DNA of 64,000 nt from Streptomyces rubradiris (GTDB lineage Bacteria; Actinomycetota; Actinomycetes; Streptomycetales; Streptomycetaceae). Position 1 is the first letter of the stretch, and each line of letters starts with the position of its first letter. A program made the translations under genes and the position numbers. Positions 10,056-50,373 of the stretch are shown piece after piece. Under the pieces are notes generated by a model, which ran no database searches, had not been told where the DNA came from, and was given only the letters and a program-made list of their open reading frames with translations. The DNA is taken from contig NZ_BNEA01000015.1 of the NCBI RefSeq assembly GCF_016860525.1, positions 4,030,001 to 4,094,000 on the forward strand, written 5' to 3'.

Positions 10056-10963
10056 CCGGCGTCCGGGGCGCTCGGGCCCCCGCCGCTCGCGCTCTTCCCG
10101 GCCGCGTCGTCCTCCTCTTGCCAGCGCAGGGCCAGCGCGGCGGCCTTGCGGGCGGCCTCGGCGACGGCCTCGGGGCCGCCCGCGCCCCGGGCCGCCGCGT
10201 AGCCGACGAGGAAGGTGGTCAGCGGGGCGGCGGGACGGGCCACGCCGTGGGCGGCGTCACGGGCCAGGTCGAGCAGGACGCCGGTGTCGACGTCCAGGTC
10301 GATGCCCAACTCGTCCTTGACTGCGGAGATCCATTCATCCAACACGTGCCCATGCTCCCTGATGCGTGCCCTGGCGTCGGCGATGTCGTCCCAGGTGTCG
10401 CAGTCGAACGACGCGAGCGGGTCCGGGACACGGGTGAGGCGGAGGGTTCCGGTCAGCCGGCGCAGGGGGAGCCCGGTGAGGGGACCGTCGGCGGCGAGAG
10501 CGGCCAGCTCGCGGCGCAGGGCGGCGGAGCGGTAGGCGGCCACGAGCGGCTGGTCGCGGCCGTCCGCGTCGGTGAGCAGCGCACCGTCGGCACCGGTGTC
10601 CCGCAGGGCGGACAGCAGCCGCCGGAGCGTACCGGGCCGGAGGAAGGGCAGGTCGGCGGAGAGGACGACGGTGTGCCCGGCGGTGGTGTGCCGCAGTCCG
10701 GCCGCCAGCGCGGCGAGCGGCCCGCCGCCGGGCGGCTCCTCGCGGGCCCAGCGCACCGGGCGGGCGGTGGGCCGGGGCGCGGCCACGACGACGGTCGTCC
10801 GGGCGTCCGCGCAGGCCGCGAGCACCCGGTCGAGCAGCGCCCGGCCGCCGACCCGCACACCTGGTTTGTCGGCCCCGCCGAGCCGCCTGGCGGCACCGCC
10901 GGCCAGTACGACGGCGTCGTACGGGGCGGCGGTCCCGGGGGCGGCGGGTGCGGCATCGGTCAC
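10052..10963 (-). CDS. MobA-like NTP transferase fused to DUF6457
   Basis: 303 residues in two parts. Residues 15-200 form a MobA-type nucleotidyltransferase: VVLAGGAARRLGGADK (L-A-G-G-x-x-x-R-x-G-x-x-K signature), VVLSADLPFLRPG, and DGRDQPLVAAYR. Residues 205-290 (HVLDEWISAVKDELGID, then LARDAAHGVARPAAPLTTFLVG) match DUF6457, which occurs as a separate small protein near molybdenum-cofactor genes in other actinobacteria. MobA attaches GMP (or CMP in MocA) to molybdopterin. The fusion supports a role for DUF6457 in that step, though its activity is unknown. It is first gene of the mobA-moeA-channel run. Confidence 0.88.
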   Translation of the reverse strand: MTDAAPAAPGTAAPYDAVVLAGGAARRLGGADKPGVRVGGRALLDRVLAACADARTTVVVAAPRPTARPVRWAREEPPGGGPLAALAAGLRHTTAGHTVVLSADLPFLRPGTLRRLLSALRDTGADGALLTDADGRDQPLVAAYRSAALRRELAALAADGPLTGLPLRRLTGTLRLTRVPDPLASFDCDTWDDIADARARIREHGHVLDEWISAVKDELGIDLDVDTGVLLDLARDAAHGVARPAAPLTTFLVGYAAARGAGGPEAVAEAARKAAALALRWQEEDDAAGKSASGGGPSAPDAG

Positions 10964-11033: not shown

Positions 11034-12389
11034 TCACAAGGTGCGCAGCAGCACCGCCGGCTGTTCCACGCAGTCCGCCACGTAGCGCAGGAAGCCGCCC
11101 GCCGTGCCGCCGTCGCACACCCGGTGGTCGAATGTGAGCGAGAGCTGCACGACCTGCCGGACTGCCAGCTCCCCCTCGTGCACCCACGGCTTGGGCACGA
11201 TGCGGCCGACGCCGAGCATGGCCGCCTCGGGGTGGTTGACGATCGGCGTGGAGCCGTCGACGCCGAAGACCCCGTAGTTGTTCAGCGTGAAGGTGCCGCC
11301 GGTGAGCTCCCCGGGGGTCAGCGTCCCGGTGCGGGCGGCCTCGGTGAGCCGGGCGAACTCGGCGGTCAGGGACTCGGCGTCGCGCGTGTGGGCGTCCCGG
11401 ACGACCGGCACGACCAGCCCCCGGTCGGTCTGGGCGGCGAACCCGAGGTGGACGCGGTCGAGCCGGACGATCTCGCGGGCCTCGGTGTCGACGGTGGAGT
11501 TCAGCTCGGGGAACCGGGCCAGCGCGGCGGTGCAGATCCGGGCGAGCAGCGCGAGGAGGGAGATCTTCGCGCCCGGGGTGGCGTTCATCGCGGTCCGGGC
11601 ACGCATGAGTTCGGTCGCGTCGGCGTCGACCCAGCAGGTGGCGTCCGGGATCTCCCGGCGGCTGCGGGAGAGCTTGTCGGCGACGGCGCCGCGGACACCC
11701 TTGAGGGGGATGCGTTCCCCGTCCTCGGCGCGGGGTGCCGCCGCGGCTTGCTCGCCCGCCGTACCGGCGGGAGTCGGTACGGCGGGGCCTGCGGCCGTAC
11801 CCGCGCGCGCGGTCCGGGTGCGCAGGGCGTTCTCGACGTCCGCGCGCAGGATGAGGCCGTCCGGGCCGGAACCGGTCAGCTGCCTGAGGTCGACGTCGTT
11901 GTCCCGGGCGAGCTTGCGCACGAGCGGGGAGATCACGGGGACCGGCCCCCCGACGGGTGCGGGGGCGGCCGCCGGGGTCGGCGCGGCCACGCGCACGTGC
12001 GGGGCGTGTTCGGCGGTTCCCTGCTTCCGGGCCTGTCCGTCGGCGGCGGCCGTGCCCGCCCGGACCCGGCGCCGACGGGCCGCCGGTGCCTGGGTGCCGT
12101 AGCCCACCAGGACGTTGCCCGAGCCCTCGGGGCCGTCCTCCGGTGCGCCGACGGCGACCGTCAGAAGTGGTGCGCCGACGGGCAGTTCGGTGCCCTCCTC
12201 GCCGAAGCGGGCGGTGACCACGCCGCCGTAGGGGCAGGGCACCTCGACCATCGCCTTGGCCGTCTCCACCTCGACCACCGGCTGGTCGACGGCGACCACG
12301 TCGCCGACCTGGACCAGCCAGCGGACGATCTCCGCCTCGGTGAGCCCCTCGCCGAGGTCGGGCAGCTTGAACTCCAGCACCTGAGCCAT
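11034..12389 (-). CDS. bkdC: Branched-chain 2-oxoacid dehydrogenase E2 (dihydrolipoyl acyltransferase)
   Basis: 451 residues. Lipoyl domain at 1-78 with lipoylated lysine in VETAKAMVE (about residue 44). Subunit-binding domain about 165-205 (ISPLVRKLARDNDVDL). Catalytic acyltransferase domain from about 225 to the end with HRVCDGG near residue 420, the HxxxDG active site. E2 transfers the branched acyl group from E1 to CoA, giving isobutyryl-, isovaleryl- or 2-methylbutyryl-CoA, primers for branched fatty acids and polyketides. Its ATG shares one base with the bkdB stop. No E3 gene is present, so the complex must use a lipoamide dehydrogenase encoded elsewhere. Confidence 0.93.
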   Translation of the reverse strand: MAQVLEFKLPDLGEGLTEAEIVRWLVQVGDVVAVDQPVVEVETAKAMVEVPCPYGGVVTARFGEEGTELPVGAPLLTVAVGAPEDGPEGSGNVLVGYGTQAPAARRRRVRAGTAAADGQARKQGTAEHAPHVRVAAPTPAAAPAPVGGPVPVISPLVRKLARDNDVDLRQLTGSGPDGLILRADVENALRTRTARAGTAAGPAVPTPAGTAGEQAAAAPRAEDGERIPLKGVRGAVADKLSRSRREIPDATCWVDADATELMRARTAMNATPGAKISLLALLARICTAALARFPELNSTVDTEAREIVRLDRVHLGFAAQTDRGLVVPVVRDAHTRDAESLTAEFARLTEAARTGTLTPGELTGGTFTLNNYGVFGVDGSTPIVNHPEAAMLGVGRIVPKPWVHEGELAVRQVVQLSLTFDHRVCDGGTAGGFLRYVADCVEQPAVLLRTL

Positions 12390-13393
12390 CAGCCCTCGGC
12401 CTCCCACTGCAGCCGGGCCACGGCGTCCAGGATGCGGTCGACGCCGGGCAGGTGGTGCCGCTCCAGCATGGGCGGCGGGTAGGGGATGTCGAAGCCGGCC
12501 ACGCGCAGCACCGGTGCCTCCAGGTGGTGGAAGCAGCGCTCGGTGATCCGGGCCGCGATCTCGCCGCCCGGGCCGCCGAATCCGGTGGACTCGTGGACGA
12601 CGACCGCGCGGCCGGTGCGCCGGACGGCCGCGCAGACCGTCTCGTCGTCGAAGGGCACCAGGGAGCGCAGGTCGATCACCTCCAGGTCCCAGCCCTCGGC
12701 CTGCGCGGCCTCGGCCGCCTCCAGGCAGACCGGCAGGGAGGGGCCGTAGGTGATCAGTGTGGCGCCGCTGCCGGGGCGGCGCACCACCGCGCGTCCGATG
12801 GGCGCCACGTCCGTGGGCCGCTCGGGGTCCCAGGTGTCCTTCGACCAGTACAGCCGCTTGGGTTCGAGGAAGACCACCGGGTCGTCGGAGGCGATGGCCC
12901 GGCGCAGCAGTCCGTAGGCGTCGGCGACGGTGGCCGGGGTGACGACGTGCAGGCCCGGGGTGGCCATGTAGTAAACCTCGGACGAGTCGCTGTGGTGCTC
13001 GACGCCGCCGATGCCGCCGCCGTAGGGGACGCGGACGGTGATCGGCAGGGGCATCCGGCCGCGCGTGCGGTTGCGCATCCGGGCGACATGGCTGACCAGT
13101 TGCTCGAACGCCGGGTAGGCGAAGGCGTCGAACTGCATCTCCACGACCGGGCGCAGGCCGTACATGGCCATGCCGACGGCGGTGCCGAGGATGCCGGCCT
13201 CGGCGAGCGGGGTGTCGGTGCAGCGGTCCTCGCCGAACTCCTTGGCGAGCCCGTCGGTGACGCGGAAGACCCCGCCGAGGGTGCCGACGTCCTCGCCCAG
13301 GACGTGCACGGCGGGATCGGCGGCCATGGCGTCGCGCATGGCGCGGTTGAGCGCCTGGGCCAGGGTGGCGGGCTTGACGGCGACGGTGGTCAT
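12389..13393 (-). CDS. bkdB: Branched-chain 2-oxoacid dehydrogenase E1 beta subunit
   Basis: 334 residues, normal E1-beta length. N-terminal ALNRAMRDAMAADPAVHVLGEDVG, then EMQFDAFAYPAFEQLVSH and PYGGGIGGVEHHSDS, are classic E1-beta signatures; the C-terminal part has the transketolase-C fold (VVVHESTGFGGPGGE). Together with the alpha subunit it decarboxylates branched-chain 2-oxo acids using thiamine diphosphate. The ATG at 13393 lies in an ATGA overlap with the bkdA stop. The apparent longer frame upstream is out-of-frame reading through bkdA. Confidence 0.93.
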   Translation of the reverse strand: MTTVAVKPATLAQALNRAMRDAMAADPAVHVLGEDVGTLGGVFRVTDGLAKEFGEDRCTDTPLAEAGILGTAVGMAMYGLRPVVEMQFDAFAYPAFEQLVSHVARMRNRTRGRMPLPITVRVPYGGGIGGVEHHSDSSEVYYMATPGLHVVTPATVADAYGLLRRAIASDDPVVFLEPKRLYWSKDTWDPERPTDVAPIGRAVVRRPGSGATLITYGPSLPVCLEAAEAAQAEGWDLEVIDLRSLVPFDDETVCAAVRRTGRAVVVHESTGFGGPGGEIAARITERCFHHLEAPVLRVAGFDIPYPPPMLERHHLPGVDRILDAVARLQWEAEG

Positions 13394-14562
13394 CGGGTGC
13401 CGCCTTCCCGCGCCCCGGGCCGCTCGCCGGCGCCGGACTGCTCCTGCTCGGCCTCCAGCTCGGCCCGCAACAGGGCACGCTGTTCGCGCAGCTGGGCGGT
13501 GGTGTCCGCGTAGACGTGGTCGAAGAGGTCCATGGGGTCGGGTTCGGGGTCCCGGTTCATGTGTTCGCGCAAGGCGGCGGCCATGGTCTCGGCGTCCTGC
13601 CGGGCGGCCTCGATGCCGGCCTCGTCCAGCAGTCCGCGGGCGGTCAGTTCGCGTTCCAGCAGTTCGACCGGGTCGTGCGCGCGCCAGGCCGCGACCTCGG
13701 CGTCCTGTCGGTAGCGGGTGGCGTCGTCGGCGTTGGTGTGGGCGTCCAGGCGGTACGTCACCGCTTCCACCAGGGTCGGGCCGCCGCCCGCGCGCGCGTG
13801 CCGTACGGCCTCGGCGAGGACTTCGTGCACGGCGGCGGCGTCGTTGCCGTCGACCAGCCGGCCCGGCATGCCGTACCCGACGGCCTTGTGGGCCAGGGAG
13901 GGAGCGGCGGTCTGCTTGGCGAGCGGGACGGAGATGGCGAAGCCGTTGTTCTGGACCAGGAAGACGACCGGGGCCTGCCACACGGCGGCGAAGTTCAGCG
14001 CCTCGTGGAAGTCGCCCTCGCTGGTACCGCCGTCGCCGACCATGGCCAGCGCCACCACGTCGTCGCCCTTGAGGCGAGCGGCGTGGGCGAGGCCGACGGC
14101 GTGCGGCAGCTGGGTGGCCAGCGGGGTGCTGAGGGGGGCCACCCGGTGGGCGTAGGGGTCGTAGCCGTTGTGCCAGTCGCCGCGCAGCAGGGTGAGCGCC
14201 TGGACCGGGTCCACGCCCCGGGCGACGACGGCGAGCGTGTCTCGGTAGCTGGGGAAGAGCCAGTCGCGTTCCTCGAGGGCCAGGGCGGCGCCGATCTGGC
14301 AGGCCTCCTGGCCGGTGCTGGACGGGTAGACGGCGAGCCGGCCCTGCTTGGTCAGCGCGGTGGCCTGCGCGTTGTAGCGGCGTCCGCGCACCAGCTGGGC
14401 GTAGAGCCGCAGCAGCAGGCCGGGATCGGCCTTGGCGGCCGACTCGGTGCCGAGGACGCGGTAGGGCTCGGCGTCGGGCAGCAGCGGCGCGGGGTCCGTA
14501 CGGGGCTGCCAGGCGGGCGGCGGCGACGGCCGGTACGCGCCCCGCTGCTCCAGAACCGTCAT
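13390..14562 (-). CDS. bkdA: Branched-chain 2-oxoacid dehydrogenase E1 alpha subunit
   Basis: 390 residues from ATG 14562, chosen because GAGGAGG lies 7 bases upstream; an in-frame ATG at 14619 has no such site. The thiamine diphosphate motif runs from GDGGTSEGDFHEALNFA to QNNGF (about residues 175-210). The conserved phosphorylatable-loop region YRLDAHTNADDATRYR is also present. It is first gene of bkdABC on the minus strand and is divergent from an Lrp gene. The 174-base space between them contains a one-mismatch copy of the PaaR-type operator and two DnaA-box-like elements. Confidence 0.93.
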   Translation of the reverse strand: MTVLEQRGAYRPSPPPAWQPRTDPAPLLPDAEPYRVLGTESAAKADPGLLLRLYAQLVRGRRYNAQATALTKQGRLAVYPSSTGQEACQIGAALALEERDWLFPSYRDTLAVVARGVDPVQALTLLRGDWHNGYDPYAHRVAPLSTPLATQLPHAVGLAHAARLKGDDVVALAMVGDGGTSEGDFHEALNFAAVWQAPVVFLVQNNGFAISVPLAKQTAAPSLAHKAVGYGMPGRLVDGNDAAAVHEVLAEAVRHARAGGGPTLVEAVTYRLDAHTNADDATRYRQDAEVAAWRAHDPVELLERELTARGLLDEAGIEAARQDAETMAAALREHMNRDPEPDPMDLFDHVYADTTAQLREQRALLRAELEAEQEQSGAGERPGAREGGTR

Positions 14563-14621: not shown

Positions 14622-14635
14622 ACCGATTGTTCGGT
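14622..14635. promoter_or_regulatory. Imperfect PaaR-type operator upstream of bkdA
   Basis: ACCGATTGTTCGGT fits ACCGNNCGNNCGGT except for T in place of the first base of the central CG. It lies 60 bases upstream of the bkdA ATG and about 100 bases upstream of the Lrp gene. The same element, without the mismatch, is found at 17395-17408 and 22980-22993. Confidence 0.6.
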
Positions 14636-14667
14636 TGACGGCGCATTTTGGCTACAGGCGGCCCAGG

Positions 14668-14693
14668 GCTGTGGACAAACGGTTTTCCACAGC
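14668..14693. promoter_or_regulatory. Inverted pair of DnaA-box-like elements
   Basis: GCTGTGGA and TCCACAGC form a perfect 8-bp inverted repeat around a 10-base spacer. Read as DnaA boxes, 14670-14678 is TTGTCCACA on the minus strand (exact Streptomyces consensus) and 14683-14691 is TTTTCCACA on the plus strand (one mismatch). It sits between bkdA and the Lrp gene. Confidence 0.6.
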
Positions 14694-14736
14694 CTGGAAT
14701 GAGCGCAGGACGTCCACGGCGAGGAAGCGGGGGGAC

Positions 14737-15237
14737 ATGGCGCCTGAACAAATGGCCTACGGACCGCAGGGTGGCGGCGCGCCGCCGCCCCCGCGCCCGC
14801 TGGACGCCATCGACCAGGACATCCTGAGGATCCTCCAGGGCGACGGCCGCGCCTCGATACGGTCCGTCGCCGAACGCGTACACGTCTCGCGCGCCAATGC
14901 CTACGCGCGGATCAACCGGCTCGTCGAGGACGGGGTGATCCGGGGTTTCAGCGCCCGCGTGGATCACGAACGGGCAGGCCACAGCACGTCCGCGTACATC
15001 ACATTGAAGATCGTGCAGAACACCTGGCGCACGGTCCGCGAACAGCTCCGGCAGCTACCCGGCGCCTCCCACATCGCCCTGGTGGGCGGCGACTTCGACG
15101 TGCTGCTGCTGGTGCACACGCCCGACAACCGGGCGCTGCGCGAGCTGGTGCTGACGCGGCTCCAGGCGATCCCCGAGGTGCTCAGCACCCGCACGCTGCT
15201 GGTGTTCGAGGAGGAGGACCTGGAGCCGGAGGGCTGA
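14737..15237 (+). CDS. Lrp/AsnC-family transcriptional regulator (BkdR-like)
   Basis: 166 residues from ATG 14737 (an ATG five codons later is an alternative). After a Gly/Pro-rich 20-residue tail comes the AsnC helix-turn-helix (IDQDILRILQGDGRASIRSVAERVHVS split by the turn, about residues 28-75), then an RAM/ActR ligand-binding domain (about 90-160). Lrp proteins bind amino acids and form octamers. Divergent placement next to bkdABC is the arrangement of BkdR, which activates bkd genes in response to branched-chain amino acids in Pseudomonas; the same role is inferred here. It ends two bases before the convergent TetR gene stop. Confidence 0.9.
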   Translation: MAPEQMAYGPQGGGAPPPPRPLDAIDQDILRILQGDGRASIRSVAERVHVSRANAYARINRLVEDGVIRGFSARVDHERAGHSTSAYITLKIVQNTWRTVREQLRQLPGASHIALVGGDFDVLLLVHTPDNRALRELVLTRLQAIPEVLSTRTLLVFEEEDLEPEG

Positions 15238-15239
15238 GG

Positions 15240-15827
15240 TCAGCCCCGGCGCAGTCCCGAGAAGACCAGCCGGACGACGGCGTCGGCCATCTCCGGGCCG
15301 TTCGCGCCGCGCGCCTCCGGCCGGTACCACTCCACGATGGAGTTGATCATCCCGAAGACCAGCCGGGTGGCCAGCCGCACCTCCACGTCGCCGCGTATGT
15401 CCCCGTCGGCCGCCGCGGCCTTCATCAGCTCGGCCACCCGGTGGTCGAAGTCGCGGCGCCGCTCCAGCGCCCACCGCTCGGTCTCGGTGTTGCCGCGCAC
15501 GCGCAGCAGCAGCGTCACATAGGGCAGTTCGGCGGTGAGCACCTCGACCATGCGGCGCACGACGTGCTCCAGCCGGTCGGCGGCGCGCCCCACGCGCGCG
15601 TGCTCCTCGTCCAGGATGGCGAACAGCCCGTCCAGGGCGCGGCTGACGGCCCGGCGCAGCAGCTCCTCCTTGCCGCTGACGTGGTGGTAGATCGACGACT
15701 TGGAGATGCCGGCCGCCTTGGACAGGTGCTCCATGGAGGTGCCGTCGTAGCCGCGCTCGTTGAAGACCCGCACGGCGACGGAGAGCAGCGTTTCGGGGGT
15801 GTAGGTGTCGCGTCTGCCCGTGGTCAT
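15240..15827 (-). CDS. TetR-family regulator, probable PaaR-like repressor
   Basis: 195 residues. N-terminal helix-turn-helix about residues 10-56 (ERGYDGTSMEHLSKAAGIS, then SSIYHHVSGKEELL), with a variable ligand-binding C-terminal domain. It overlaps by 4 bases the end of the 3-hydroxyacyl-CoA dehydrogenase gene and so is read from the divergent paaN/dehydrogenase promoter, which carries a PaaR-type operator. In Corynebacterium glutamicum PaaR is a TetR protein controlled by phenylacetyl-CoA. From operon position and operator I infer the same role here, controlling itself, paaN, paaABCDE and possibly bkdABC. The link of this protein to the motif is not proven by sequence. Confidence 0.85.
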   Translation of the reverse strand: MTTGRRDTYTPETLLSVAVRVFNERGYDGTSMEHLSKAAGISKSSIYHHVSGKEELLRRAVSRALDGLFAILDEEHARVGRAADRLEHVVRRMVEVLTAELPYVTLLLRVRGNTETERWALERRRDFDHRVAELMKAAAADGDIRGDVEVRLATRLVFGMINSIVEWYRPEARGANGPEMADAVVRLVFSGLRRG

Positions 15828-17338
15828 GAGGTGCTCTCCCGCCGGTCGTTGGCATAGGCGTGACGGTAGAGCGCGAGGGAGGGCGCGTAGCGTCCGGAAG
15901 GGTCGCGCTCGTGCATCTCGTCCAGGATGTCGAAGGCGAAGTCGCGGCCGAGCCTGCGGCCCCACTCGAAGGGCCCGAGCGGGTAGTTGACGCCCAGGCG
16001 CATCGCGGTGTCGATGTCCTCCTCGGTGGCCACGCCCTTGGCGACGGCGTCGTGGGCGAGGTCGATGATCCGGGCGACGGTGCGCGCGACGATCATGCCG
16101 GGGACGTCGCCGATGACGCTGACGTCCTTGCCGAGCGCCTGGAACAGCCCGGTGGCCTCGGCAAGGGTCCGCGGCGAGGTGTCCGGGGACGCGGACAGGG
16201 CGACGCGGGTGGCCGCGCGGTAGTCCAGGGCGAGGTCGAAGTAGACGACGTCCCGGAACTCGGCGGAGGTCTGGCCGTCGGCCAGGACCAGGTCGCCGCC
16301 GCCGGGCAGCACCAGGCGGGTGCCCTCGTTCTCGTCCTCCTCGCGGACCTCGATGCCCGCCTCGCGGATCAGCGTGAGCAGCTCGGCCGCCGGGCCCAGG
16401 CCGCCCTCGGCGACGACGTGGGCGGGCGGGCGCTCCTTGTCGGCGGTGTGCGGCTCGGGCCGCTCCGCGCCCTCGGTGTAGTCGTACCAGCCGCGCCCGC
16501 TCTTGCGGCCGAGCCGGCCGGACTCCACCAGCCGGCGCTGGGCCAGGGAAGGAGTGAAGCGCACGTCCTGGAAGAAGGACTGCCACACCGAGTGGGTGAC
16601 GGACTCGTTGACGTCCTGGCCGATCAGGTCGGTCAGTTCGAAGGCGCCCATCTTGAAACCGCCCGACTCGCGCAGGACCGCGTCGATGGTCGCGGGGTCG
16701 GCGGCCTGGGCCTCGTAGACGGCGAACGCCTCGGCGTAGAAGGGCCGGGCGATGCGGTTGACGATGAAGCCGGGGGTGTCGGCGCAGGCCACGGGGGTCT
16801 TGCCCCAGGCGCGGGCGGTCTCGTACGCGCGCGTGGCCGACGTGAAGTCGGTGGCGAACCCGGAGACCACCTCCACCAGCGGCAGCAGCGGCGCCGGGTT
16901 GAAGAAGTGCAGGCCGACGAAGCGGCCCGGGTGGCGCAGGGCGCCGCCGATGGCCGTCACCGACAGCGAGGAGGTGTTGGTGGCCAGCAGGCAGTCCTCG
17001 GCGACGATCTCCTCCAGCTCGCCGAAGAGCCGCTGCTTGACGTCCAGCCGTTCCAGGACGGCCTCCACCACCAGGGCGCAGTCGGCCAGCTCCGCGAGGC
17101 CGTCCGCGGGCGTGACGCGGGCGCGGGCCGCGTCCCGGGCGCCGGCGGAGAGCCGGCCCTTCTCCACGAGCCGGTCGAGCCGGGCGCCGATCGCTTCGGC
17201 CGCGTCCCGGGCCCGCCCGGGTACGGCGTCGTAGAGCCGTACGGGATGGCCGGCGACCAGCGCGACCTGGGCGATGCCCTGGCCCATGGTGCCGGTGCCG
17301 ACGACGGCCACGGGGCTGCTGAGGTCGAGTGCTGTCAT
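15824..17338 (-). CDS. paaH: 3-hydroxyacyl-CoA dehydrogenase, probable 3-hydroxyadipyl-CoA dehydrogenase (PaaH/PaaC type)
   Basis: 504 residues, the two-C-domain length of PaaH rather than the about 280 of short FadB2. NAD motif GTGTMGQGIA at residues 14-23, followed by catalytic region ATNTSSLSVTAIGGALRHPGR broken here as NTSSLSV and HFFNP (His of the catalytic pair). A second 3HCDH C-terminal domain occupies about 400-490 (ARIIDLAHDAVAKG, MRLGVNYPLGPFEW). It oxidises 3-hydroxyadipyl-CoA in the lower phenylacetyl-CoA pathway. It is divergent from paaN and co-transcribed with the TetR gene. Confidence 0.88.
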   Translation of the reverse strand: MTALDLSSPVAVVGTGTMGQGIAQVALVAGHPVRLYDAVPGRARDAAEAIGARLDRLVEKGRLSAGARDAARARVTPADGLAELADCALVVEAVLERLDVKQRLFGELEEIVAEDCLLATNTSSLSVTAIGGALRHPGRFVGLHFFNPAPLLPLVEVVSGFATDFTSATRAYETARAWGKTPVACADTPGFIVNRIARPFYAEAFAVYEAQAADPATIDAVLRESGGFKMGAFELTDLIGQDVNESVTHSVWQSFFQDVRFTPSLAQRRLVESGRLGRKSGRGWYDYTEGAERPEPHTADKERPPAHVVAEGGLGPAAELLTLIREAGIEVREEDENEGTRLVLPGGGDLVLADGQTSAEFRDVVYFDLALDYRAATRVALSASPDTSPRTLAEATGLFQALGKDVSVIGDVPGMIVARTVARIIDLAHDAVAKGVATEEDIDTAMRLGVNYPLGPFEWGRRLGRDFAFDILDEMHERDPSGRYAPSLALYRHAYANDRRESTS

Positions 17339-17361
17339 GTGCGCGATCCTCCCGCACGACG

Positions 17362-17414
17362 TTTTCCACAGATGCGGCGGACCCCCTTGTCCCGACCGAT
17401 CGTTCGGTTACTCT
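17362..17414. promoter_or_regulatory. Divergent paaH/paaN control region: DnaA-like box, PaaR-type operator, paaN promoter
   Basis: TTTTCCACA (17362-17370) is one mismatch from a DnaA box. TTGTCC (17387-17392) and TACTCT (17409-17414) make a -35/-10 pair with 16-base spacing facing paaN. The operator ACCGATCGTTCGGT (17395-17408) fills that spacer, so a bound repressor would block RNA polymerase directly. The element fits the PaaR consensus ACCGNNCGNNCGGT exactly. Confidence 0.7.
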
Positions 17415-17487
17415 AGCTCTGACGGGCAGTCCCTGCCCAGGTCACGGACTCGACGAAGAGGCTCTCCAGACGAGGAGTTGGTCCCGC

Positions 17488-19182
17488 ATGGCCGCCGAAC
17501 CGACCGCCCACGAGCTGCTCCGGAAGCACCGGCCCACGCTCGACCAGGCGCTGGAAGCGATCCGCACGCGCGCGTACTGGTCCCCGCACCCCGAGCACCC
17601 GAAGGCGTACGGCGAGGACGGCAGCCTGGACGCGGCGGCGGGCAAGGCCGCCTTCGACGCCCTGCTGGGCAACCGCCTCGACCTCACCGACCAGCCGGGC
17701 ACCGACGACTGGGTGGGCGGGGAGGTCTCCCCGTACGGCATCGAGCTGGGCGTGACCTACCCGCATCCGGACATCGACGTGCTGCTGCCCGCCATGCGGG
17801 CCGGGCAGCGCGCCTGGCGGGACGCGGGCCCCGAGCTGCGGGCCGTGGTCTGCCTGGAGATCCTGAAGCGGATCAGCGACCGCACGCACCAGTTCGCGCA
17901 CGCGGTCATGCACACCTCCGGCCAGGCGTTCATGATGGCGTTCCAGGCGGGCGGTCCGCACGCCCAGGACCGCGGCCTGGAGGCGGTGGCGTACGCGTAC
18001 GCGGAGCAGATCCGCACCCCGGAGCAGGCGGAGTGGACCAAGCCGCAGGGCAAGCGCGACCCGCTGGTCCTCACCAAGCGGTTCACCGCGGTCCCGCGCG
18101 GCATCGGCCTGGTCATCGGCTGCAACACCTTCCCGACCTGGAACGGCTTCCCCGGCCTGTTCGCCTCCCTGGCCACCGGCAACGCGGTCCTGGTCAAGCC
18201 GCACCCGCGCGCGGTGCTGCCGCTCGCGCTGACCGTCCGGATCGCCCGGGACGTGCTCGCCGAGGCCGGCTTCGACCCGAACCTGGTCGCCCTGGCCGCC
18301 GAGCGACCCGGCGAGGGCATTGCCAAGACCCTCGCGCTGCGCCCCGAAATCAAGATCATCGACTACACGGGGTCGACGGCGTTCGGCGACTGGCTGGAGA
18401 CCAACGCCCACCAGGCGCAGGTCTACACGGAGAAGGCCGGCGTCAACACGGTGATCGTGCACTCCACGGACGACTACCAGGGCATGCTGTCCAACCTGGC
18501 GTTCTCGCTGTCCCTGTACAGCGGCCAGATGTGCACCACCCCGCAGAACCTGATCATCCCCCGCGACGGCATCGCCACCGACCAGGGCCACAAGTCCTTC
18601 GACGAGGTCACCGCCGACCTCGCGCGCGCGGTCGACGGCCTGCTCGGTGACGACGCCCGGGCGAACGCGCTGCTGGGCGCGATCGTCAACCCGGACGTCA
18701 AGGCCCGCCTGGAGGCAGCGGCCGGTCTCGGCGAAGTCGCCCTCGCCTCCCGCGAGATCACCAACCCTGAGTTCCCGGACGCGGTGGTGCGCACCCCCGT
18801 CATCGTCAAGCTGGACGGCGCCAAGCCGGACGACGAGGCCGCGTACATGAGCGAGTGCTTCGGCCCGGTCTCCTTCGCGGTAGCCGTCGACTCGGCGGCC
18901 GACGCCGTGGAGCTGCTGCGCCGCACCGTCCGGGAGAAGGGCGCGATGACGGTCGGCGCGTACACCACGGACGCCGTGACCGAGCAGGCCGTCGAGGAGG
19001 CCTGCCTGGAGGAGGCGGCCCAGCTCTCGCTGAACCTGACCGGCGGGGTCTACGTCAACCAGACGGCCGCCTTCTCCGACTTCCACGGCTCCGGCGGCAA
19101 CCCGGCGGCCAACGCGGCCCTGACCGACAGCGCCTTCGTGGCCGGCCGCTTCCGGATGGTGGAGGTGCGGCGGGAGGCCTGA
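17488..19182 (+). CDS. paaN: Phenylacetate degradation protein PaaN (aldehyde dehydrogenase superfamily)
   Basis: 564 residues from ATG 17488 with GAGGAG upstream. The aldehyde dehydrogenase fold is clear: PRGIGLVIGCNTFPTWN (cofactor region), IDYTGSTAFGDWLE, and catalytic cysteine in SGQMCTTPQN. This matches the PaaN type that lacks the MaoC-like hydratase domain of E. coli PaaZ. By analogy it should oxidise the semialdehyde formed after oxepin-CoA ring opening to the dicarboxylate, with the hydratase supplied separately; no hydratase gene is in this window. It is controlled from the PaaR-type operator 80 bases upstream. Confidence 0.9.
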   Translation: MAAEPTAHELLRKHRPTLDQALEAIRTRAYWSPHPEHPKAYGEDGSLDAAAGKAAFDALLGNRLDLTDQPGTDDWVGGEVSPYGIELGVTYPHPDIDVLLPAMRAGQRAWRDAGPELRAVVCLEILKRISDRTHQFAHAVMHTSGQAFMMAFQAGGPHAQDRGLEAVAYAYAEQIRTPEQAEWTKPQGKRDPLVLTKRFTAVPRGIGLVIGCNTFPTWNGFPGLFASLATGNAVLVKPHPRAVLPLALTVRIARDVLAEAGFDPNLVALAAERPGEGIAKTLALRPEIKIIDYTGSTAFGDWLETNAHQAQVYTEKAGVNTVIVHSTDDYQGMLSNLAFSLSLYSGQMCTTPQNLIIPRDGIATDQGHKSFDEVTADLARAVDGLLGDDARANALLGAIVNPDVKARLEAAAGLGEVALASREITNPEFPDAVVRTPVIVKLDGAKPDDEAAYMSECFGPVSFAVAVDSAADAVELLRRTVREKGAMTVGAYTTDAVTEQAVEEACLEEAAQLSLNLTGGVYVNQTAAFSDFHGSGGNPAANAALTDSAFVAGRFRMVEVRREA

Positions 19183-19189
19183 GCCCGGC

Positions 19190-19942
19190 CTAAACCAGTG
19201 GCACGCCCCCGGTCGCGCTCCAGTGGTACAGCGTCATCGCCACGCTGGTGGCGAGGTTGTAGCTGGAGACCTGGGGGCGCATCGGCAGGCGCAGCAGGTG
19301 GTCGGCGCGGGCGCGCAGCGGAGCCGACAGGCCGGTGCGTTCCGAGCCGAAGACCAGGACGGCGTCGTCCGGCAGCCGGGTGCCACGGATGTCCTCGCCC
19401 TCCGGGTCGAGCGCGAACAGCGGCCCGGCGGGCAGGTCGTCGAGGTCCAGCCGCTCCACGGCGGTCGCGAAGTGCAGACCCGCGCCGCCGCGCACCACAG
19501 TGGGGTGCCAGGGGTCGAGCGTGCCCGTGGTGACCACCCCGGTCGCCCCGAACCCGGCGGCGAGCCGGATCACGGCACCGGCGTTGCCCAGGTTGCGCGG
19601 GTTGTCCAGGACCACGACGGGGGCGGTGCGGGGCGTACGGGCGAGCGCGCGCAGCTGCGCCGCGCGGGACGGCCGTACGGCCAGGGCCGCCACACCGGTC
19701 GGATGCGGGCGCGGGACGAGGCCGGCGTACTCCGGCCCGGACACCTCCGTCAGCAGGCCGTCCAGGGTGTCGCGGACGTCCCCGGCCAGCTCCTCGGCGA
19801 GGGCGAGCGCGGCCCGCCGGTCGGTGGTGACCGCGACCGGCACCTCGGCGCCGAAGCGCAGCGCGTGCTTGAGGGCGTGGAAACCGTCGAGCAGGACGGC
19901 GCCCTGAGCGTGCGCGCGCCAGCGGCTCAGCGGGTCGGTCAT
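19190..19942 (-). CDS. TrmH/SpoU-family RNA 2'-O-methyltransferase
   Basis: 250 residues. The C-terminal SpoU domain has the three family motifs: NPRNLGNAGAVIR (about residue 112), LVFGSERTGLS (about 205), and LPMRPQVSSYNLATSVAM near the end. These form the deep trefoil knot that binds S-adenosylmethionine. The N-terminal part is short and unlike the ribosomal-L30e-like substrate domain of classic RlmB. The RNA target cannot be deduced. Its ATG overlaps the HTTM gene stop by 4 bases, so it closes a DUF5819-HTTM-TrmH operon; it converges on paaN with only 7 bases between them. Confidence 0.88.
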   Translation of the reverse strand: MTDPLSRWRAHAQGAVLLDGFHALKHALRFGAEVPVAVTTDRRAALALAEELAGDVRDTLDGLLTEVSGPEYAGLVPRPHPTGVAALAVRPSRAAQLRALARTPRTAPVVVLDNPRNLGNAGAVIRLAAGFGATGVVTTGTLDPWHPTVVRGGAGLHFATAVERLDLDDLPAGPLFALDPEGEDIRGTRLPDDAVLVFGSERTGLSAPLRARADHLLRLPMRPQVSSYNLATSVAMTLYHWSATGGVPLV

Positions 19943-21153
19943 GCGGTGAACCCTACGTGGTCGGCCGTGCTCTCTTCCGTGGGACGCGGTGCGGGGACCG
20001 CGCGGCCGGCACCCCGGACGAGCCGCCCCCGCGCGCGTGCCGCCAGGCCGCCGATCCGGCACAGGAAGGACGTCGGCAGGAACACCGCGTCGGCGGCGAT
20101 CATCGCCAGCGAGAAGAACGGCAGTCCGAGGACGACCGCGATCACCGCGTGCTCGGCCATCATCACCACCAGCAGGACGTTCTTCACGCGCCGGTTGAAC
20201 AGGGTGAACGGGAAGGCGACCTGCGCCATGACCGTCCCGTAGGCCACGATCATCATGATCGTGCCGCTGGAGGACATCAGGTCCGCCAGCGCGGGCCAGG
20301 GCGAGAAGTAGTCCAGGTGGAGCGGGTAGTAGACGGCGGTGCCGTCCTGCCAGCGCGAGCCCTGGACCTTGTACCAGCCGGCCGTGGCGTAGATCAGGCA
20401 CGCCTCGGCCATGATCACGACCAGGGCGGCGTTGTGCAGGACGTTGGCGATGACGTCCAGCAGGAGCCGGGGGTCATGCCGGGCCGACCACCGTTCGACG
20501 GCCCACCGCAGAGCGTGCCCCGCCCACACCGTCCACAGCAGCACCGGCATCTGCCAGCCGTTGTTGTCGAACCGCCCGGTCAGCGTCGCCGTACCGAGCG
20601 CCAGGCCGAGCACCGCCCACAGCACCGGCCCCACCAGGTCGGCGGGCACCCGCTCGCCCCGCGCGCGTGCCGCGTCCGCCTGGGCCGCGCGGCGGGCATC
20701 CAGGGACCACACCTGTCCGCAGCGCGTGAACACCAGGTAGATCGACATCAGGTGCAGGACGTTGTCACCGCCGTCGCCGACGAAGACACTGCGGTTCTGC
20801 AGCGACAGCACGCCCATCATGAACAGCACGGACGCGGTCCGGGTACGCCAGCCGAGCACCAGGGCCGCGGAAGCGAGGACGGCCAGCGCGTAGCAGATCT
20901 CGAACCAGAGCCGCCCGTCGGACCACAGCAGCGCCGAGAAGGCGTGGTTGTCGGCGGTCAGCTGCTTGGCGAGGTTCCAGCCCCACGGTCCGGAGGGACC
21001 GTACAGCTCCTGGCGGTGGGGGAACTCGCGCAGCAGGAACAGCAGCCAGGTCCCGGCGAACCCGATCCGGATCACGGCGCTCTGGTACGGCCCGAGGGCC
21101 GCGCCGGTGACCTGGGCGACACCGCGCGACAGCGTCAGGGACAGACGGTTCAC
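19939..21153 (-). CDS. HTTM-domain polytopic membrane protein (gamma-carboxylase-like)
   Basis: 404 residues from GTG 21153, which overlaps the upstream stop (GTGA). Several hydrophobic segments (for example WLLFLLREF, LAVLASAALVLGW, AALVVIMAEACLIY, VFLPTSFLCR region) and the HTTM signature GDGGDNVLHLMSIYL and ATAGWYKVQGSRW. The HTTM domain resembles the membrane part of vitamin-K-dependent gamma-glutamyl carboxylase, but bacterial members have no proven activity in most cases. It is always close to a DUF5819 gene in Streptomyces in my recollection, as here, so the two probably form one membrane complex. Confidence 0.85.
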   Translation of the reverse strand: MNRLSLTLSRGVAQVTGAALGPYQSAVIRIGFAGTWLLFLLREFPHRQELYGPSGPWGWNLAKQLTADNHAFSALLWSDGRLWFEICYALAVLASAALVLGWRTRTASVLFMMGVLSLQNRSVFVGDGGDNVLHLMSIYLVFTRCGQVWSLDARRAAQADAARARGERVPADLVGPVLWAVLGLALGTATLTGRFDNNGWQMPVLLWTVWAGHALRWAVERWSARHDPRLLLDVIANVLHNAALVVIMAEACLIYATAGWYKVQGSRWQDGTAVYYPLHLDYFSPWPALADLMSSSGTIMMIVAYGTVMAQVAFPFTLFNRRVKNVLLVVMMAEHAVIAVVLGLPFFSLAMIAADAVFLPTSFLCRIGGLAARARGRLVRGAGRAVPAPRPTEESTADHVGFTA

Positions 21154-22205
21154 CGCACGCCTCCCGCGGCCTCGTCGGACGTCACGGACCACCAGGGCAG
21201 CAGGCGGTAGACGGGTTTGTCGGACACGCGCTCACGGCTCCAGGGCGGCGGCTGCACATTGGTGGTCCTGGAACGGACCTGCACGCGCTGGATCACGCCT
21301 TCCCTGCTCGCCGGATCGCTCCGGTACAGGCGCATCACCACGATCCGGCGCAGGTACTGCTCGGACAGCGAGCCGCGCATACCGATGGCGCGATTGTCGG
21401 CGCCGTGCGTGCCGGCGAAGAAGTCCCAGGCCCGGCGCAGCTCGTTCTGCTGGGTGTGGCTCGGCGCCGGATTGCCGTCGATGGCGGCGCCGTCCTGGGC
21501 GGACAGGTCGGTCCATCCGGTGGTGAGCAGCCCGCCGTCGGGCATCCGGACCTCGGCGCGCACCTGTACGGCGATGTTCTGCTGGAGCGGGTTCGGGGCG
21601 AACAGCTTCCAGTTCTGCTCGAACTCGGGGTAGACCCAGTCCTCTATCGCCTCGCCGTGCCGCTTCGTCACGGTGTTGGAGGGCGTGAGGGTGAGGAACA
21701 CCATCAGCAGATGCACACAGGCGCCCACTGCGACCACGGCGAGGGCGAGCGCGGCGACGACCTGGTAGCAAGGGGAAAGAGCGGCTACGCCGGTACGGGG
21801 ACCGGGCACGGTCCTACCGGTACGCGGGTCGGCCTCGGCCGCGGCGACACCGGCGCGGGCCTCGGACGCGGGCACTGCGGTACGGGGGCCGGTCCCGGCG
21901 ACGCCCACGCGGGACTCGGACGCGGGGAGACCGGCACGGGCATCAGGCCAGGTGACATCAGCGCGGGGCGCGGCGGTCGGCCCGTCGGCGCGGGAACCGG
22001 TGCCGGCGGCGCGGGCGCCGGACTCGGGCGTACGGGGCTCGGGCGTGGACGCGGGCGTACGGGGCTCGGGCGTGGACGCGGGGGGACGGGGCTCGGGCGT
22101 GGCGGCCGGTGGCGGGGCCGGTCGTGGTGGCTGTTCCGGGAGACGCGTCCCGGCCGGCCCGTCGGGAGCCTGTGGTTCCCGCGAGTCCTCGTCGTACGCG
22201 TCCAT
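21150..22205 (-). CDS. DUF5819 family membrane-anchored protein
   Basis: 351 residues from ATG 22205 (GGGGAC upstream); an ATG at 22232 adds nine residues and cannot be excluded. Residues 1-150 are low-complexity, with Pro/Glu/Thr repeats (TPEPRTPAS repeated three times). One membrane helix (VVAALALAVVAVGACVHLLMVFL, here about 156-178) precedes a conserved extracellular domain with EFEQNWKLFAPNPLQQN, characteristic of DUF5819. The domain probably faces outward and partners the HTTM protein encoded next. Function unknown. The reading frame stays open far upstream through the 45-bp repeat, but that is a consequence of the repeat length, not evidence of coding. Confidence 0.8.
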   Translation of the reverse strand: MDAYDEDSREPQAPDGPAGTRLPEQPPRPAPPPAATPEPRPPASTPEPRTPASTPEPRTPESGARAAGTGSRADGPTAAPRADVTWPDARAGLPASESRVGVAGTGPRTAVPASEARAGVAAAEADPRTGRTVPGPRTGVAALSPCYQVVAALALAVVAVGACVHLLMVFLTLTPSNTVTKRHGEAIEDWVYPEFEQNWKLFAPNPLQQNIAVQVRAEVRMPDGGLLTTGWTDLSAQDGAAIDGNPAPSHTQQNELRRAWDFFAGTHGADNRAIGMRGSLSEQYLRRIVVMRLYRSDPASREGVIQRVQVRSRTTNVQPPPWSRERVSDKPVYRLLPWWSVTSDEAAGGVR

Positions 22206-22448
22206 TGGGTCCCGTCCCCCGTTTCGGCTCATCGTCGTTCGGCCCGGTCGTTCCGCTCGGTCTCGTCCGCCCGGCGTCGGCCGGGCGGGGGCGGCCGTCG
22301 ACGCCGGGTTCGTCACAGGCGCCGCATGCCGCACGAGCGCCGCCTCTCGGCGCCCGCACGGAACGGTACTCAGCCGGGGGCACCGGGCGCAGCCCCGGGT
22401 ACGAACCGGGGACGTGGCCCACCCCACGGGCGCCCCGCGGGAACAGGA

Positions 22449-22718
22449 CGGACACGGCTCCGGCGCTTCGGCCGACGCGGTGACCGGGCACGGCGGACAC
22501 TGCTCCGGCGCTTCGGCCGACGCGGTGACCGAGCACGGCGGACACGGCTCCGGCGCTTCGGCCGACGCGGTGACCGAGCACGGCGGACACGGCTCCGGCG
22601 CTTCGGCCGACGCGGTGACCGAGCACGGCGGACACTGCTCCGGCGCTTCGGCCGACGCGGTGACCGAGCACGGCGGACACTGCTCCGGCGCTTCGGCCCG
22701 ACGCGGTGACCGGGCACG
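22449..22718. repeat. Six-copy 45-bp tandem repeat (minisatellite)
   Basis: The unit contains GCTTCGGCCGACGCGGTGAC; copies are phased exactly 45 bases apart (GCTTCGGC at 22465, 22510, 22555, 22600, 22645, 22690). Copies differ at only a few positions (GGCTCC or TGCTCC; GAGCAC or GGGCAC). The last copy has one inserted C, which breaks any reading frame through it. Confidence 0.95.
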
Positions 22719-22910
22719 GCCTGCCGCCGTCACCGCTGTTGCCCACCCAGCCCTCGCTCCCGCCATCCCCGCCGAGGCACGCCCCTCTGCCGGCTCTGGC
22801 TCCCGCCATCCCCCGCCGAGGCACGCCCGCACCTCTCTCCCAGCCCTCGCGACGTCTCCCGCCACCGCTCGGACCGGCCCGCACACCGCCTCACCGCACG
22901 TTGTCCACAG

Positions 22911-22993
22911 GTCGCGGCGGGAGTTTTCCACAGCGGTTGACACCCCGCGGCGGCCCGGCACACCATGGATTGCGCACGGACCGAACGATCGGT
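22911..22993 (+). promoter_or_regulatory. paaA control region: two DnaA-box-like sites, -35 element and PaaR-type operator
   Basis: TTGTCCACA at 22911-22919 is an exact Streptomyces DnaA box, and TTTTCCACA follows at 22924-22932, 13 bases on. TTGACA at 22937-22942 is a perfect -35; the best -10 is CACCAT near 22961. The operator ACCGAACGATCGGT (22980-22993) is the reverse complement of the paaN copy and lies just past that -10, 55 bases before the paaA ATG. Confidence 0.7.
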
Positions 22994-23047: not shown

Positions 23048-24064
23048 ATGGCCACAGCAGCCGCGCAGCGCACGGCCCGTACCGGGGCGGACGGCGCGCC
23101 TGACACCGCCGACACGACGGCCTACCAGCGCGCCTTCGACGCGGCCGTGGCCGCCGACGAGCGCGTCGAACCGCGCGACTGGATGCCGGACGCCTACCGC
23201 GCGACCCTGGTCCGGCAGATCGCCCAGCACGCGCACTCCGAGATCATCGGCATGCAGCCGGAGGCCAACTGGATCACCCGCGCGCCCTCCCTGCGCCGCA
23301 AGGCGATCCTGATGGCCAAGGTCCAGGACGAGGCCGGCCACGGCCTGTACCTGTACAGCGCGGCCGAGACGCTAGGCACCAGCCGTGACGAGTTGCTGGA
23401 CAAACTGCACGCCGGCCGCCAGAAGTACTCCTCGATCTTCAACTACCCGACCCTGACCTGGGCCGACGTGGGAGCGATCGGTTGGCTGGTGGACGGCGCC
23501 GCGATCACCAACCAGGTCCCCCTGTGCCGCTGCTCCTACGGCCCGTACGCCCGCGCGATGGTCCGGATCTGCAAGGAGGAGTCCTTCCACCAGCGCCAGG
23601 GCTACGAACTGCTGCTGGCGCTCAGCAAGGGCACACCGGAGCAGCACGCCATGGCCCAGGACGCGGTGGACCGCTGGTGGTGGCCGTCGCTGATGATGTT
23701 CGGCCCGCCCGACGACGAGTCCCAGCACTCCGCGCAGTCGATGGAGTGGAAGATCAAGCGCCACTCCAACGACGAGTTGCGCCAGCGCTTCGTGGACATC
23801 TGCGTCCCCCAGGCCGAGTCCCTGGGCCTCACCCTCCCCGACCCGGAACTGCGGTGGAACGAGGAGCGGGGGCACTACGACTTCGGCCCGATCGACTGGA
23901 CGGAATTCTGGGAGGTTCTCAAGGGCAACGGCCCCTGCAACGAACAGCGCCTCACCCAGCGCAGGCGCGCCCATGACGAGGGCGCGTGGGTACGGGAAGC
24001 CGCCGCGGCCTACGCGGCCAAGCACACCGGCGACACCGGTGGGACGGGAGCGACGCGAGCATGA
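23048..24064 (+). CDS. paaA: 1,2-phenylacetyl-CoA epoxidase catalytic subunit PaaA
   Basis: 338 residues, typical of PaaA. Diiron-site helices are visible: [24 protein letters not shown] (carboxylate plus His), and [14 protein letters not shown] (ExxH). The DWMPDAYR and [16 protein letters not shown] blocks are highly conserved in this family. With PaaB, PaaC and PaaE it makes the oxygenase that epoxidises the ring of phenylacetyl-CoA. ATG 23048 follows an AGGTCAGGGGGA sequence. It is first gene of paaABCDE, with overlapping stops and starts down the operon. Confidence 0.96.
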
Positions 24065-24348
24065 GCACCACCGACTGGCCCCTGTGGGAGGTCTTCGTAC
24101 GCTCCCGGCGCGGCCTGTCCCACACCCACGCCGGCAGCCTGCACGCACCCGACGCCGAGCTCGCCCTGCGCAACGCCCGCGATCTGTACACCCGGCGCGG
24201 CGAGGGCGTCTCCATCTGGGTCGTCCCGGCCGCCGCCATCACCGCCTCCTCGCCGGACGAGAAGGACCCCTTCTTCGAGCCGGCCGCCGACAAGCCCTAC
24301 CGGCACCCGACCTTCTACGAGATCCCGGAAGGGGTGAAACACCTGTGA
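24061..24348 (+). CDS. paaB: 1,2-phenylacetyl-CoA epoxidase subunit PaaB
   Basis: 95 residues, the normal PaaB length. Conserved sequence [24 protein letters not shown] is present in part as PLWEVFVR and [16 protein letters not shown]; the middle contains [13 protein letters not shown]. PaaB bridges catalytic heterodimers in the epoxidase complex. Its ATG overlaps the paaA TGA by 4 bases and its stop overlaps the paaC GTG start. Confidence 0.95.
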
Positions 24349-50159: not shown

Positions 50160-50373
50160 TTATCCACTGAGTTATCCACAGCCGTTGTCCACAGTGGGGA
50201 AAAAGAACGACGATCTGTGGATAACCTGCCGGATGTTGACGCCGGTGTGACTGGTACAACACCGTTCAGACATCCGTTCGCCCCCTGTCCTACCTGCGGA
50301 AACACATCCGAGCGACAGGGGGCACAGCTGTGCCCGCACGGTGTGCACAAGATCGGGCACAAGCTGTGGACAA
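50160..50373. promoter_or_regulatory. Cluster of five DnaA boxes between crgA and rhomboid gene
   Basis: Boxes on the plus strand: TTATCCACT (50160-50168), TTATCCACA (50172-50180), TTGTCCACA (50185-50193). On the minus strand: 50216-50224 (TTATCCACA) and 50365-50373 (TTGTCCACA). Four fit TTRTCCACA exactly and one differs at the last base. The consensus is that of actinobacterial DnaA. A cluster outside oriC has been described in S. coelicolor as a DnaA-box trap; whether it is this one needs checking. Confidence 0.85.
50281..50335. terminator. Hairpin and palindrome after crgA
   Basis: CCCCCTGTC (50281-50289) and GACAGGGGG (50314-50322) are perfect 9-bp arms. Overlapping their end is a perfect 16-bp palindrome GGGCACAGCTGTGCCC (50320-50335). 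They lie within the DnaA-box region between convergent genes and probably act as terminator, though the palindrome could bind a dimeric protein. Confidence 0.55.

Follow-up and report, generated by a model that had tools for sequence, protein, structure and literature searches.

A conserved palindrome suggests PaaR-type control of 2-oxo-acid dehydrogenase and phenylacetate genes in Streptomyces and its family

Introduction

Why should the promoter of a 2-oxo-acid dehydrogenase operon carry the same short palindrome as the promoters of phenylacetate catabolism? The question is raised by a 64,000-nucleotide stretch of the Streptomyces rubradiris genome (assembly GCF_016860525.1, contig NZ_BNEA01000015.1, positions 4,030,001 to 4,094,000; hereafter the window), in which the bkdABC operon and the neighboring bkdR are encoded beside paaH, a gene for a TetR-family regulator (tetR, 15240-15827), paaN, and the paaA operon. 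An original prediction, made from the DNA letters of the window, proposed that one operator motif joins the control regions of these genes. Genome comparison supports the core of that proposal: a single operator is shared, it is probably read by the TetR encoded with paaH, this regulator is of the PaaR kind, and the regulon includes bkd. We consider it probable that the motif is the operator of this PaaR-type TetR, with a regulon consisting of bkdA(BC), paaH-tetR together with paaN, paaABCDE, and paaK. Computation shows directly where the sites lie, how rare and how conserved they are, and that motif and TetR occur together.

Results

The motif matches of the original prediction were recovered at the same positions: two exact, at 17395-17408 (ACCGATCGTTCGGT) and 22980-22993 (ACCGAACGATCGGT), and one with a single mismatch at 14622-14635 (ACCGATTGTTCGGT). 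As had been proposed, they fall in three control regions, which are the bkdA/bkdR gap (operator 1, 14622-14635), the gap between paaH-tetR and paaN (operator 2, 17395-17408), and the paaA leader (operator 3, 22980-22993). Four further exact matches to this loose motif, absent from the earlier list, occur in the window at 10755, 12603, 25304, and 60226. The prediction had named a genome-wide scan as its own check and held that a motif common across the genome would speak against it; the loose motif has 122 places in the genome, against 27 for a reversed control, which rules it out as a regulon marker as originally written. The claim stands for a tightened form. The strict palindrome common to all three sites, ACCGAWYRWTCGGT, occurs at four places in 9,051,737 bases, all before bkd or paa genes, and its reversed control at none. 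Three of the four fall inside one 8.4-kb block of the window. The fourth, outside the window at C1:360019-360032, lies about 40 bp upstream of the start of an open reading frame (ORF) whose product scores 691.7 bits with the PaaK model TIGR02155, above the cutoff of 646.3. Since the strict form was selected only after inspection of the three window sites, the paaK place and the other genomes serve as the independent test. A place with one mismatch near a SigB/F/G-type sigma factor gene (C15:4283536) was not accepted as a regulon member.

Conservation was scored in the window and 80 other Streptomyces loci. The latter were chosen for having the best TetR matches and are therefore close relatives. 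In the bkd gap, scored from bkdR, the exact 14-mer is present in 81/81 loci, with all 14 positions invariant, and identity to the window is 100% within the site against 82.5% across the rest of the gap. The paaH/paaN gap holds the exact 14-mer in 79 of the 80 evaluable loci and a version with one mismatch in the remaining one (99.8% identity in the site, 85.8% elsewhere in the gap). In the paaA leader, the site is exact in all 44 loci that have paaA and enough upstream sequence, and here the disparity is greatest, with 100% identity in the site and 57.1% in the rest of the upstream region. The paaH score of one locus (L091), whose contig ends inside paaH, was void and left out of the counts; the scores for trmH in L130 and httm in L101 were void too; in L133 the bkdA start is misplaced, and the site is exact when scored from bkdR. 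At the level of whole genomes, the strict motif is found in 100/101 Streptomyces genomes and the TetR (E cutoff 1e-30) in 99/101. The complete genome G037 has neither TetR nor motif, yet encodes bkdABC and paaA adjacent to one another (bkdA 61%, paaA 75%). Strict places in the other genomes were listed and inspected in part.

The three window sites are placed where a bound repressor could interfere with transcription. Because scanning the bkd gap with a promoter consensus gave no match, the hexamers given here are our own reading. On the minus strand, the predicted -35 of bkdA (TAGCCA, 14649-14654) lies 17 nt before a predicted -10, AACAAT (14631-14626), that is covered by operator 1, and this spacing is kept in 81/81 loci. 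The bkd site retains a single asymmetric form, ACCGAACAATCGGT in the bkdA sense, presumably because AACAAT can serve as the -10. On the plus strand, the predicted paaN promoter consists of TTGTCC (17387-17392) and TACTCT (17409-17414), with operator 2 in the spacer between them, in agreement with the original prediction; across loci, the site sits between TTGNNC and TACTCT. The predicted paaA promoter, also on the plus strand, has its -35 at 22937-22942 (TTGACA) and its -10 at 22961-22966 (CACCAT), and operator 3 follows both.

The local TetR is the likely reader of these sites. Its closest solved relative is SCO3833 (structure 2iai, E 4.7e-97), titled a putative regulator, and a full-text literature search for SCO3833 returned nothing. 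From sequence comparison, the TetR at 15240-15827 is likely the SCO3833 orthologue, and its context marks it as a PaaR. The window's tetR operon begins at operator 2, and four other genomes (G056, G057, G073, and G086) have a strict site no more than about 160 bp upstream of tetR itself. In a second cluster of G033, the same motif is surrounded by paaN, a thioesterase gene, paaK, and a gene for a TetR at 64%. Among 40 loci with TetR homologues from outside the family, paaA is found in 25, paaK in 21, and paaN in 6, and some loci have none of these. The palindrome also resembles the operator core of Corynebacterium glutamicum PaaR, ACCGNNCGNNCGGT, within a reported 22-bp operator, ACTNACCGNNCGNNCGGTNAGT. 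The ACTN/NAGT flanks of that operator were not seen at the three sites, and its central CG is absent at the bkd and paaK sites. Operators differ among the PaaR proteins that have been studied, so the exact Corynebacterium operator was not taken as defining.

The association of the site with bkd extends across most of the family. The bkd 14-mer is present in 113 of 121 family genomes and 14 of 17 genera. Thirty such places were inspected: 28 lie in the bkdA/bkdR gap (27 in one genus, 1 in another) and 2 elsewhere (G393 and G418). In 11 more TetR loci from 10 further genera, the site lies between bkdA and bkdR in every case, so that, the window's genus included, it has been observed in this gap in 13 genera. 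A TetR search in 23 genomes found that all 11 with a bkd-gap site carry the TetR at 72-80% identity. In the same set, no TetR was found at E 1e-20 in G393, G418, G398, G403, G406, G416, G420, G037, or G001, and G390, G408, and G424 have only a 56-62% homologue. Two loci, L400 and L403 (from G400 and G392), keep tetR, bkdR, and the bkd site, with no paaH, paaN, or paaA within the 20 kb read; paa genes elsewhere in these genomes were not searched for.

Outside the family, the palindrome goes mainly with the paa genes. Of the 64 non-Streptomyces genomes with a TetR homologue, 40 were examined, and 723 kb around these homologues was read. Of 23 near-exact places (including two overlapping pairs counted twice), 21 fall in the 3.1% of sequence around paaA, paaK, paaN, or tetR starts, where 0.7 would be expected. 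The palindrome precedes 12/25 paaA, 2/6 paaN, 1/21 paaK, and 3/40 tetR genes. One of the two exceptions (L261:2408-2421) and a second place, L329:12306-12319, are strict operators before a major facilitator superfamily (MFS) gene in two genomes of family f36. The gene resembles metabolite/H+ symporters with a match under the model's cutoff, and its product is a possible phenylacetate transporter under PaaR.

A metabolic reason for joining bkd to paa is suggested by gene neighborhoods. No more than 30 kb separates bkdA from paaA in 21/28 Streptomyces (in G355 only via a second bkdA), and in 5 of the 48 other genomes that have both genes, these five coming from five families; by our own estimate, about 0.5 of 48 would be expected by chance. 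Three islands, L312, L313, and L394 (in G302, G355, and G408), combine bkdRABC with paaN, paaH, and paaA at 38-76% identity to the window proteins, and that of G408 has nearly the gene order of the window, around its own TetR. The G302 and G355 islands carry genes for a HisC-like aminotransferase and a second PaaN-like aldehyde dehydrogenase. Because bkdABC is found near paa in other lineages, we propose that the complex makes phenylacetyl-CoA from phenylpyruvate. Aminotransferase, dehydrogenase, and paa products together would then form a route from phenylalanine through phenylpyruvate and phenylacetyl-CoA to ring opening. That the bkd complex converts phenylalanine-derived phenylpyruvate to phenylacetyl-CoA, feeding paa without PaaK, is a possibility that we hold with less than even confidence. 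Such a step has been proposed for PglB/PglC in a Streptomyces, as described in one published account (PMC7089894).

Several observations weigh against a PaaR regulon that includes bkd, or against the feed model attached to it. Some strict places in other genomes lie elsewhere, inside a GntR/aminotransferase gene (L200) and near an enoyl-CoA hydratase-like gene (L206), each in a single genome. G001 has one strict place and no TetR match, in a genome that is 79% complete. In the family genomes without the site, only a minority of which were checked for an orthologous bkd operon, site and TetR may have been lost together with the whole locus. Beyond the family, a near-exact place precedes paaA, paaK, paaN, or tetR in 15 of the 40 TetR loci and is missing there in the other 25. 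Of the 69 non-Streptomyces genomes with a bkdA homologue, 49 were examined (20 without and 29 with a TetR homologue), and none of the 49 bkdA upstream regions outside the family has a place with at most one mismatch. The bkd gaps of the islands are also without the site, and neither the window nor the other clusters searched yielded a relative of the HisC-like aminotransferase. Finally, in family f18 there are 19 genomes with a bkdA homologue (61-71% for the best match) but without a listed paaA. Given the outside places at paa and tetR and the outside bkdA genes without a site, we read the paa genes as the old targets, which bkd joined in this family; with 25 of 40 outside loci lacking a place as well, the claim for bkd is confined to this family.

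A second element accompanies the operator. TT[G/T/A]TCCACA, resembling a DnaA box, occurs ahead of the -35 at the bkdA, paaN, and paaA promoters. In the bkd gap, TTGTCCACAG lies at 14669-14678 on the minus strand, 15 nt before the bkdA -35, and TTTTCCACAG at 14683-14692 on the plus strand, in bkdR orientation. The remaining three are on the plus strand: TTTTCCACAG at 17362-17371, 16 nt before the predicted paaN -35; TTGTCCACAG at 22901-22910, upstream of paaA; and TTTTCCACAG at 22924-22933, 4 nt before the predicted paaA -35. The bkdA box, TTGTCCACA, keeps its 15-nt gap in 81/81 loci and in 27 of 28 loci of two other genera; in further genera, a promoter could be matched in 8 of 11 loci, and no more than 4 of these 8 have the box. 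TTGTCCACA appears as a high-affinity DnaA box of S. coelicolor in a published table (PMC4285127). The paaN box, at a gap of 15-17 nt, is found in 76/80 loci and in 5/9 from other genera, and the paaA box in 43/44, at 4 nt in 37. Both occur in TTT, TTG, or TTA forms, with the variation at paaA concentrated at the third base. Across 80 loci, 228 of 249 boxes fall within 130 bp of a strict operator where 8.8 would be expected, the loci being related and hence not independent.

The box by itself does not mark the regulon. TTKTCCACAG has 40 places in the genome, 5 of them in the three gaps and many beside unrelated genes, which rules it out as a marker; the boxes at these promoters may simply belong to the DnaA boxes that are spread over the genome in general. 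In seven paaK loci, the 150 bp ahead of the operator held no box, and none was found in the bkd gaps of the bkdRABC-paa islands read. Two more TTGTCCACAG places, in opposite orientations at 50185-50194 and 50364-50373, share one intergenic gap of the window. A literature search of titles and abstract openings returned no report of DnaA boxes at paa promoters. One speculative reading, which we regard as a minority possibility, is a two-part code in which a PaaR-type operator is joined by a DnaA box at near-fixed, helically related distances before the -35 (15-17 nt at bkdA and paaN, and about one turn less, 4 nt, at paaA). As a transcription factor, DnaA would then tie the supply of phenylacetyl-CoA and other acyl-CoA, feedstock for fatty acids and antibiotics, to replication, and the repressor would sense phenylacetyl-CoA made by bkdABC from phenylpyruvate.

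The gene assignments of the block are as follows. On the minus strand, bkdA (13390-14562, PF00676) encodes the E1 alpha of a 2-oxo-acid dehydrogenase, bkdB (12389-13393, PF02779 and PF02780) the E1 beta, and bkdC (11034-12401) an E2 with lipoyl, E3-binding, and 2-oxoacid_dh domains, whose start is provisional, 12401 not being a start codon. The three genes stand together in one operon, as expected of a branched-chain 2-oxo-acid dehydrogenase complex. The NCBIfam label of the bkdA product is pyruvate dehydrogenase E1 alpha (TIGR03181 above cutoff); we use the name bkd because the neighbor is bkdR, an Lrp/AsnC-family gene (14737-15237, plus strand). Just beyond the left edge of the window, some 15 kb from the first set, is a second bkd-like E1 alpha/E1 beta/E2 set (L330:10676-14066, G000:C15; 44/56/40% identity), which has no strict site in the genome-wide strict scan. 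The proposed PaaR (15240-15827, minus strand) is a protein of 195 aa with TetR_N and TetR_C_24 domains (PF00440 and PF17932) above cutoff. The reading frame of tetR overlaps by 4 bases that of the paaH-like 3-hydroxyacyl-CoA dehydrogenase gene (15824-17338, minus strand), whose product scores above cutoff for PRK08268 and below it for the PaaH equivalog TIGR02279 (588.1 bits, cutoff 669.4). On the plus strand follow paaN (17488-19182; TIGR02288, 985.7 bits, cutoff 578.75), three genes of other types (SpoU methylase, HTTM, and DUF5819), and paaA (23048-24064; TIGR02156, 530.5 bits, cutoff 280). Directly after paaA comes paaB (24061-24348, with a PaaB match), and ORFs with PaaD and PaaE domains extend to 26733. 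A 45-bp tandem repeat of six copies with 97% matches occupies 22449-22720, between the DUF5819 gene and paaA.

Discussion

From these patterns we infer binding and repression, as well as the promoter hexamers and the ligand. A TetR dimer would bind the palindrome ACCGAWYRWTCGGT at four promoters, including its own, which would amount to autoregulation. Bound there, it would keep RNA polymerase off: the protein would lie over the -10 at bkdA, over the -35/-10 spacer at paaN, and just past the -10 at paaA. An acyl-CoA of the pathway, most likely phenylacetyl-CoA as for studied PaaR proteins, would free the repressor. This arrangement suggests that the bkd and phenylacetate pathways are switched on together.

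The alternative that survives best keeps the same regulon and gives it another ligand and purpose: the TetR would be a broader acyl-CoA sensor, responding to branched-chain acyl-CoA as well as phenylacetyl-CoA, and would couple branched-chain oxo-acid catabolism to that of phenylacetate, as the original prediction had it. The bkd operon adjoins bkdR, a published regulator of a branched-chain dehydrogenase complex, and the same account says that another TetR, PccD, controls a dehydrogenase operon in Saccharopolyspora (PMC8176718); the f18 genomes, which retain a bkdA homologue without paaA, also fit this idea. However, outside the family the TetR homologues keep company mainly with paa genes and bkdA has no site, and the PaaR proteins described in one survey of the literature answer to phenylacetyl-CoA (PMC9493321). 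Co-control is explained equally well by phenylacetyl-CoA alone if the dehydrogenase makes phenylacetyl-CoA. We therefore regard the broader sensor as a minority possibility.

Three other explanations fare worse. Many TetR proteins use similar palindromes, and a first look at the genome gave 132 candidates for the protein, so a family member encoded elsewhere might read the sites; the co-occurrence of site and local TetR across genomes and loci, including sites directly before tetR, makes this improbable. The bkd site might be kept merely as a core promoter element, without being an operator, in keeping with its predicted -10 and with an asymmetric form found in 81/81 loci. That all 14 positions are invariant, and that everywhere else in the genome the palindrome occurs (three places) it marks a paa promoter, leaves this reading little likelihood. 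BkdR, an Lrp-family protein whose gene lies next to the invariant bkd site and has been conserved along with that site, is a very unlikely reader of all four promoters, since in other families bkdR stands beside bkdA with gaps that, where read, lack the motif, the motif at paa promoters lies near TetR homologues, and the 14-bp palindrome resembles published PaaR operators (PMC9493321).

Several described systems come close to the one proposed here. PaaR control of paa genes is already known in Streptomyces, as reviewed in PMC10933834. The review describes PaaR of Streptomyces pristinaespiralis (SSDG_03033) as a TetR repressor of paa, with putative sites AACGA-N4-TCGGT, and its account names no bkd target (PMC10933834); compared by description rather than by sequence, SSDG_03033 is very probably the orthologue of the window TetR. 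The C. glutamicum PaaR is likewise a TetR-type regulator of paa, and those of Burkholderia cenocepacia and Thermus thermophilus have palindromic operators (ACCGACCGGTCGGTT and CNAACGNNCGTTNG) from which they are freed by phenylacetyl-CoA, with no dehydrogenase operon among the targets named in that source (PMC9493321). BkdR (SCO3832) is an Lrp-family regulator of the dehydrogenase operon in the same position; unlike here, the published account of that operon mentions no TetR there in S. albus or S. coelicolor, and the terms "paa" and "phenylacet" are absent from its text (PMC8176718). PccD of Saccharopolyspora erythraea is similar in being a TetR said to control a branched-chain dehydrogenase operon (PMC8176718), and differs in its operator, T/ATGACGG/CTGT/CTGT/A, and in being tied to propionyl-CoA, as tabulated in PMC10933834. 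PglB/PglC of pristinamycin biosynthesis are a dehydrogenase-like pair proposed to convert phenylpyruvate to phenylacetyl-CoA; unlike bkdAB, beside which we set them by description and not by sequence, they are described in an antibiotic cluster under PapR2 (PMC7089894). A 2026 survey finds PaaR dominant in actinomycetes, and "bkd" and "branched-chain" are absent from its main text (PMC13186573). A literature search of titles and abstract openings, in which two key PaaR papers were not covered, gave no placing of bkd under PaaR. A 2012 Corynebacterium study reportedly reconstructed PaaR regulons in 57 species, and bkd may appear there.

What emerges is a well-supported predicted extension of the known PaaR regulon across most of a family, together with a second, unexplained element. 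SCO3833 gains a predicted operator, regulon, and ligand class, and the dehydrogenase operon is added to the predicted PaaR regulon in most of one bacterial family. Such dehydrogenases supply starter units in antibiotic makers, and an unrecognized repressor acting on them would be useful. The proposed bkd step also offers a direct hypothesis for how phenylalanine may be channeled in Streptomyces to phenylacetyl-CoA, from which pristinamycin I is in part built. Should the DnaA-box element prove functional, it would provide a testable case of the replication initiator acting on catabolic promoters.

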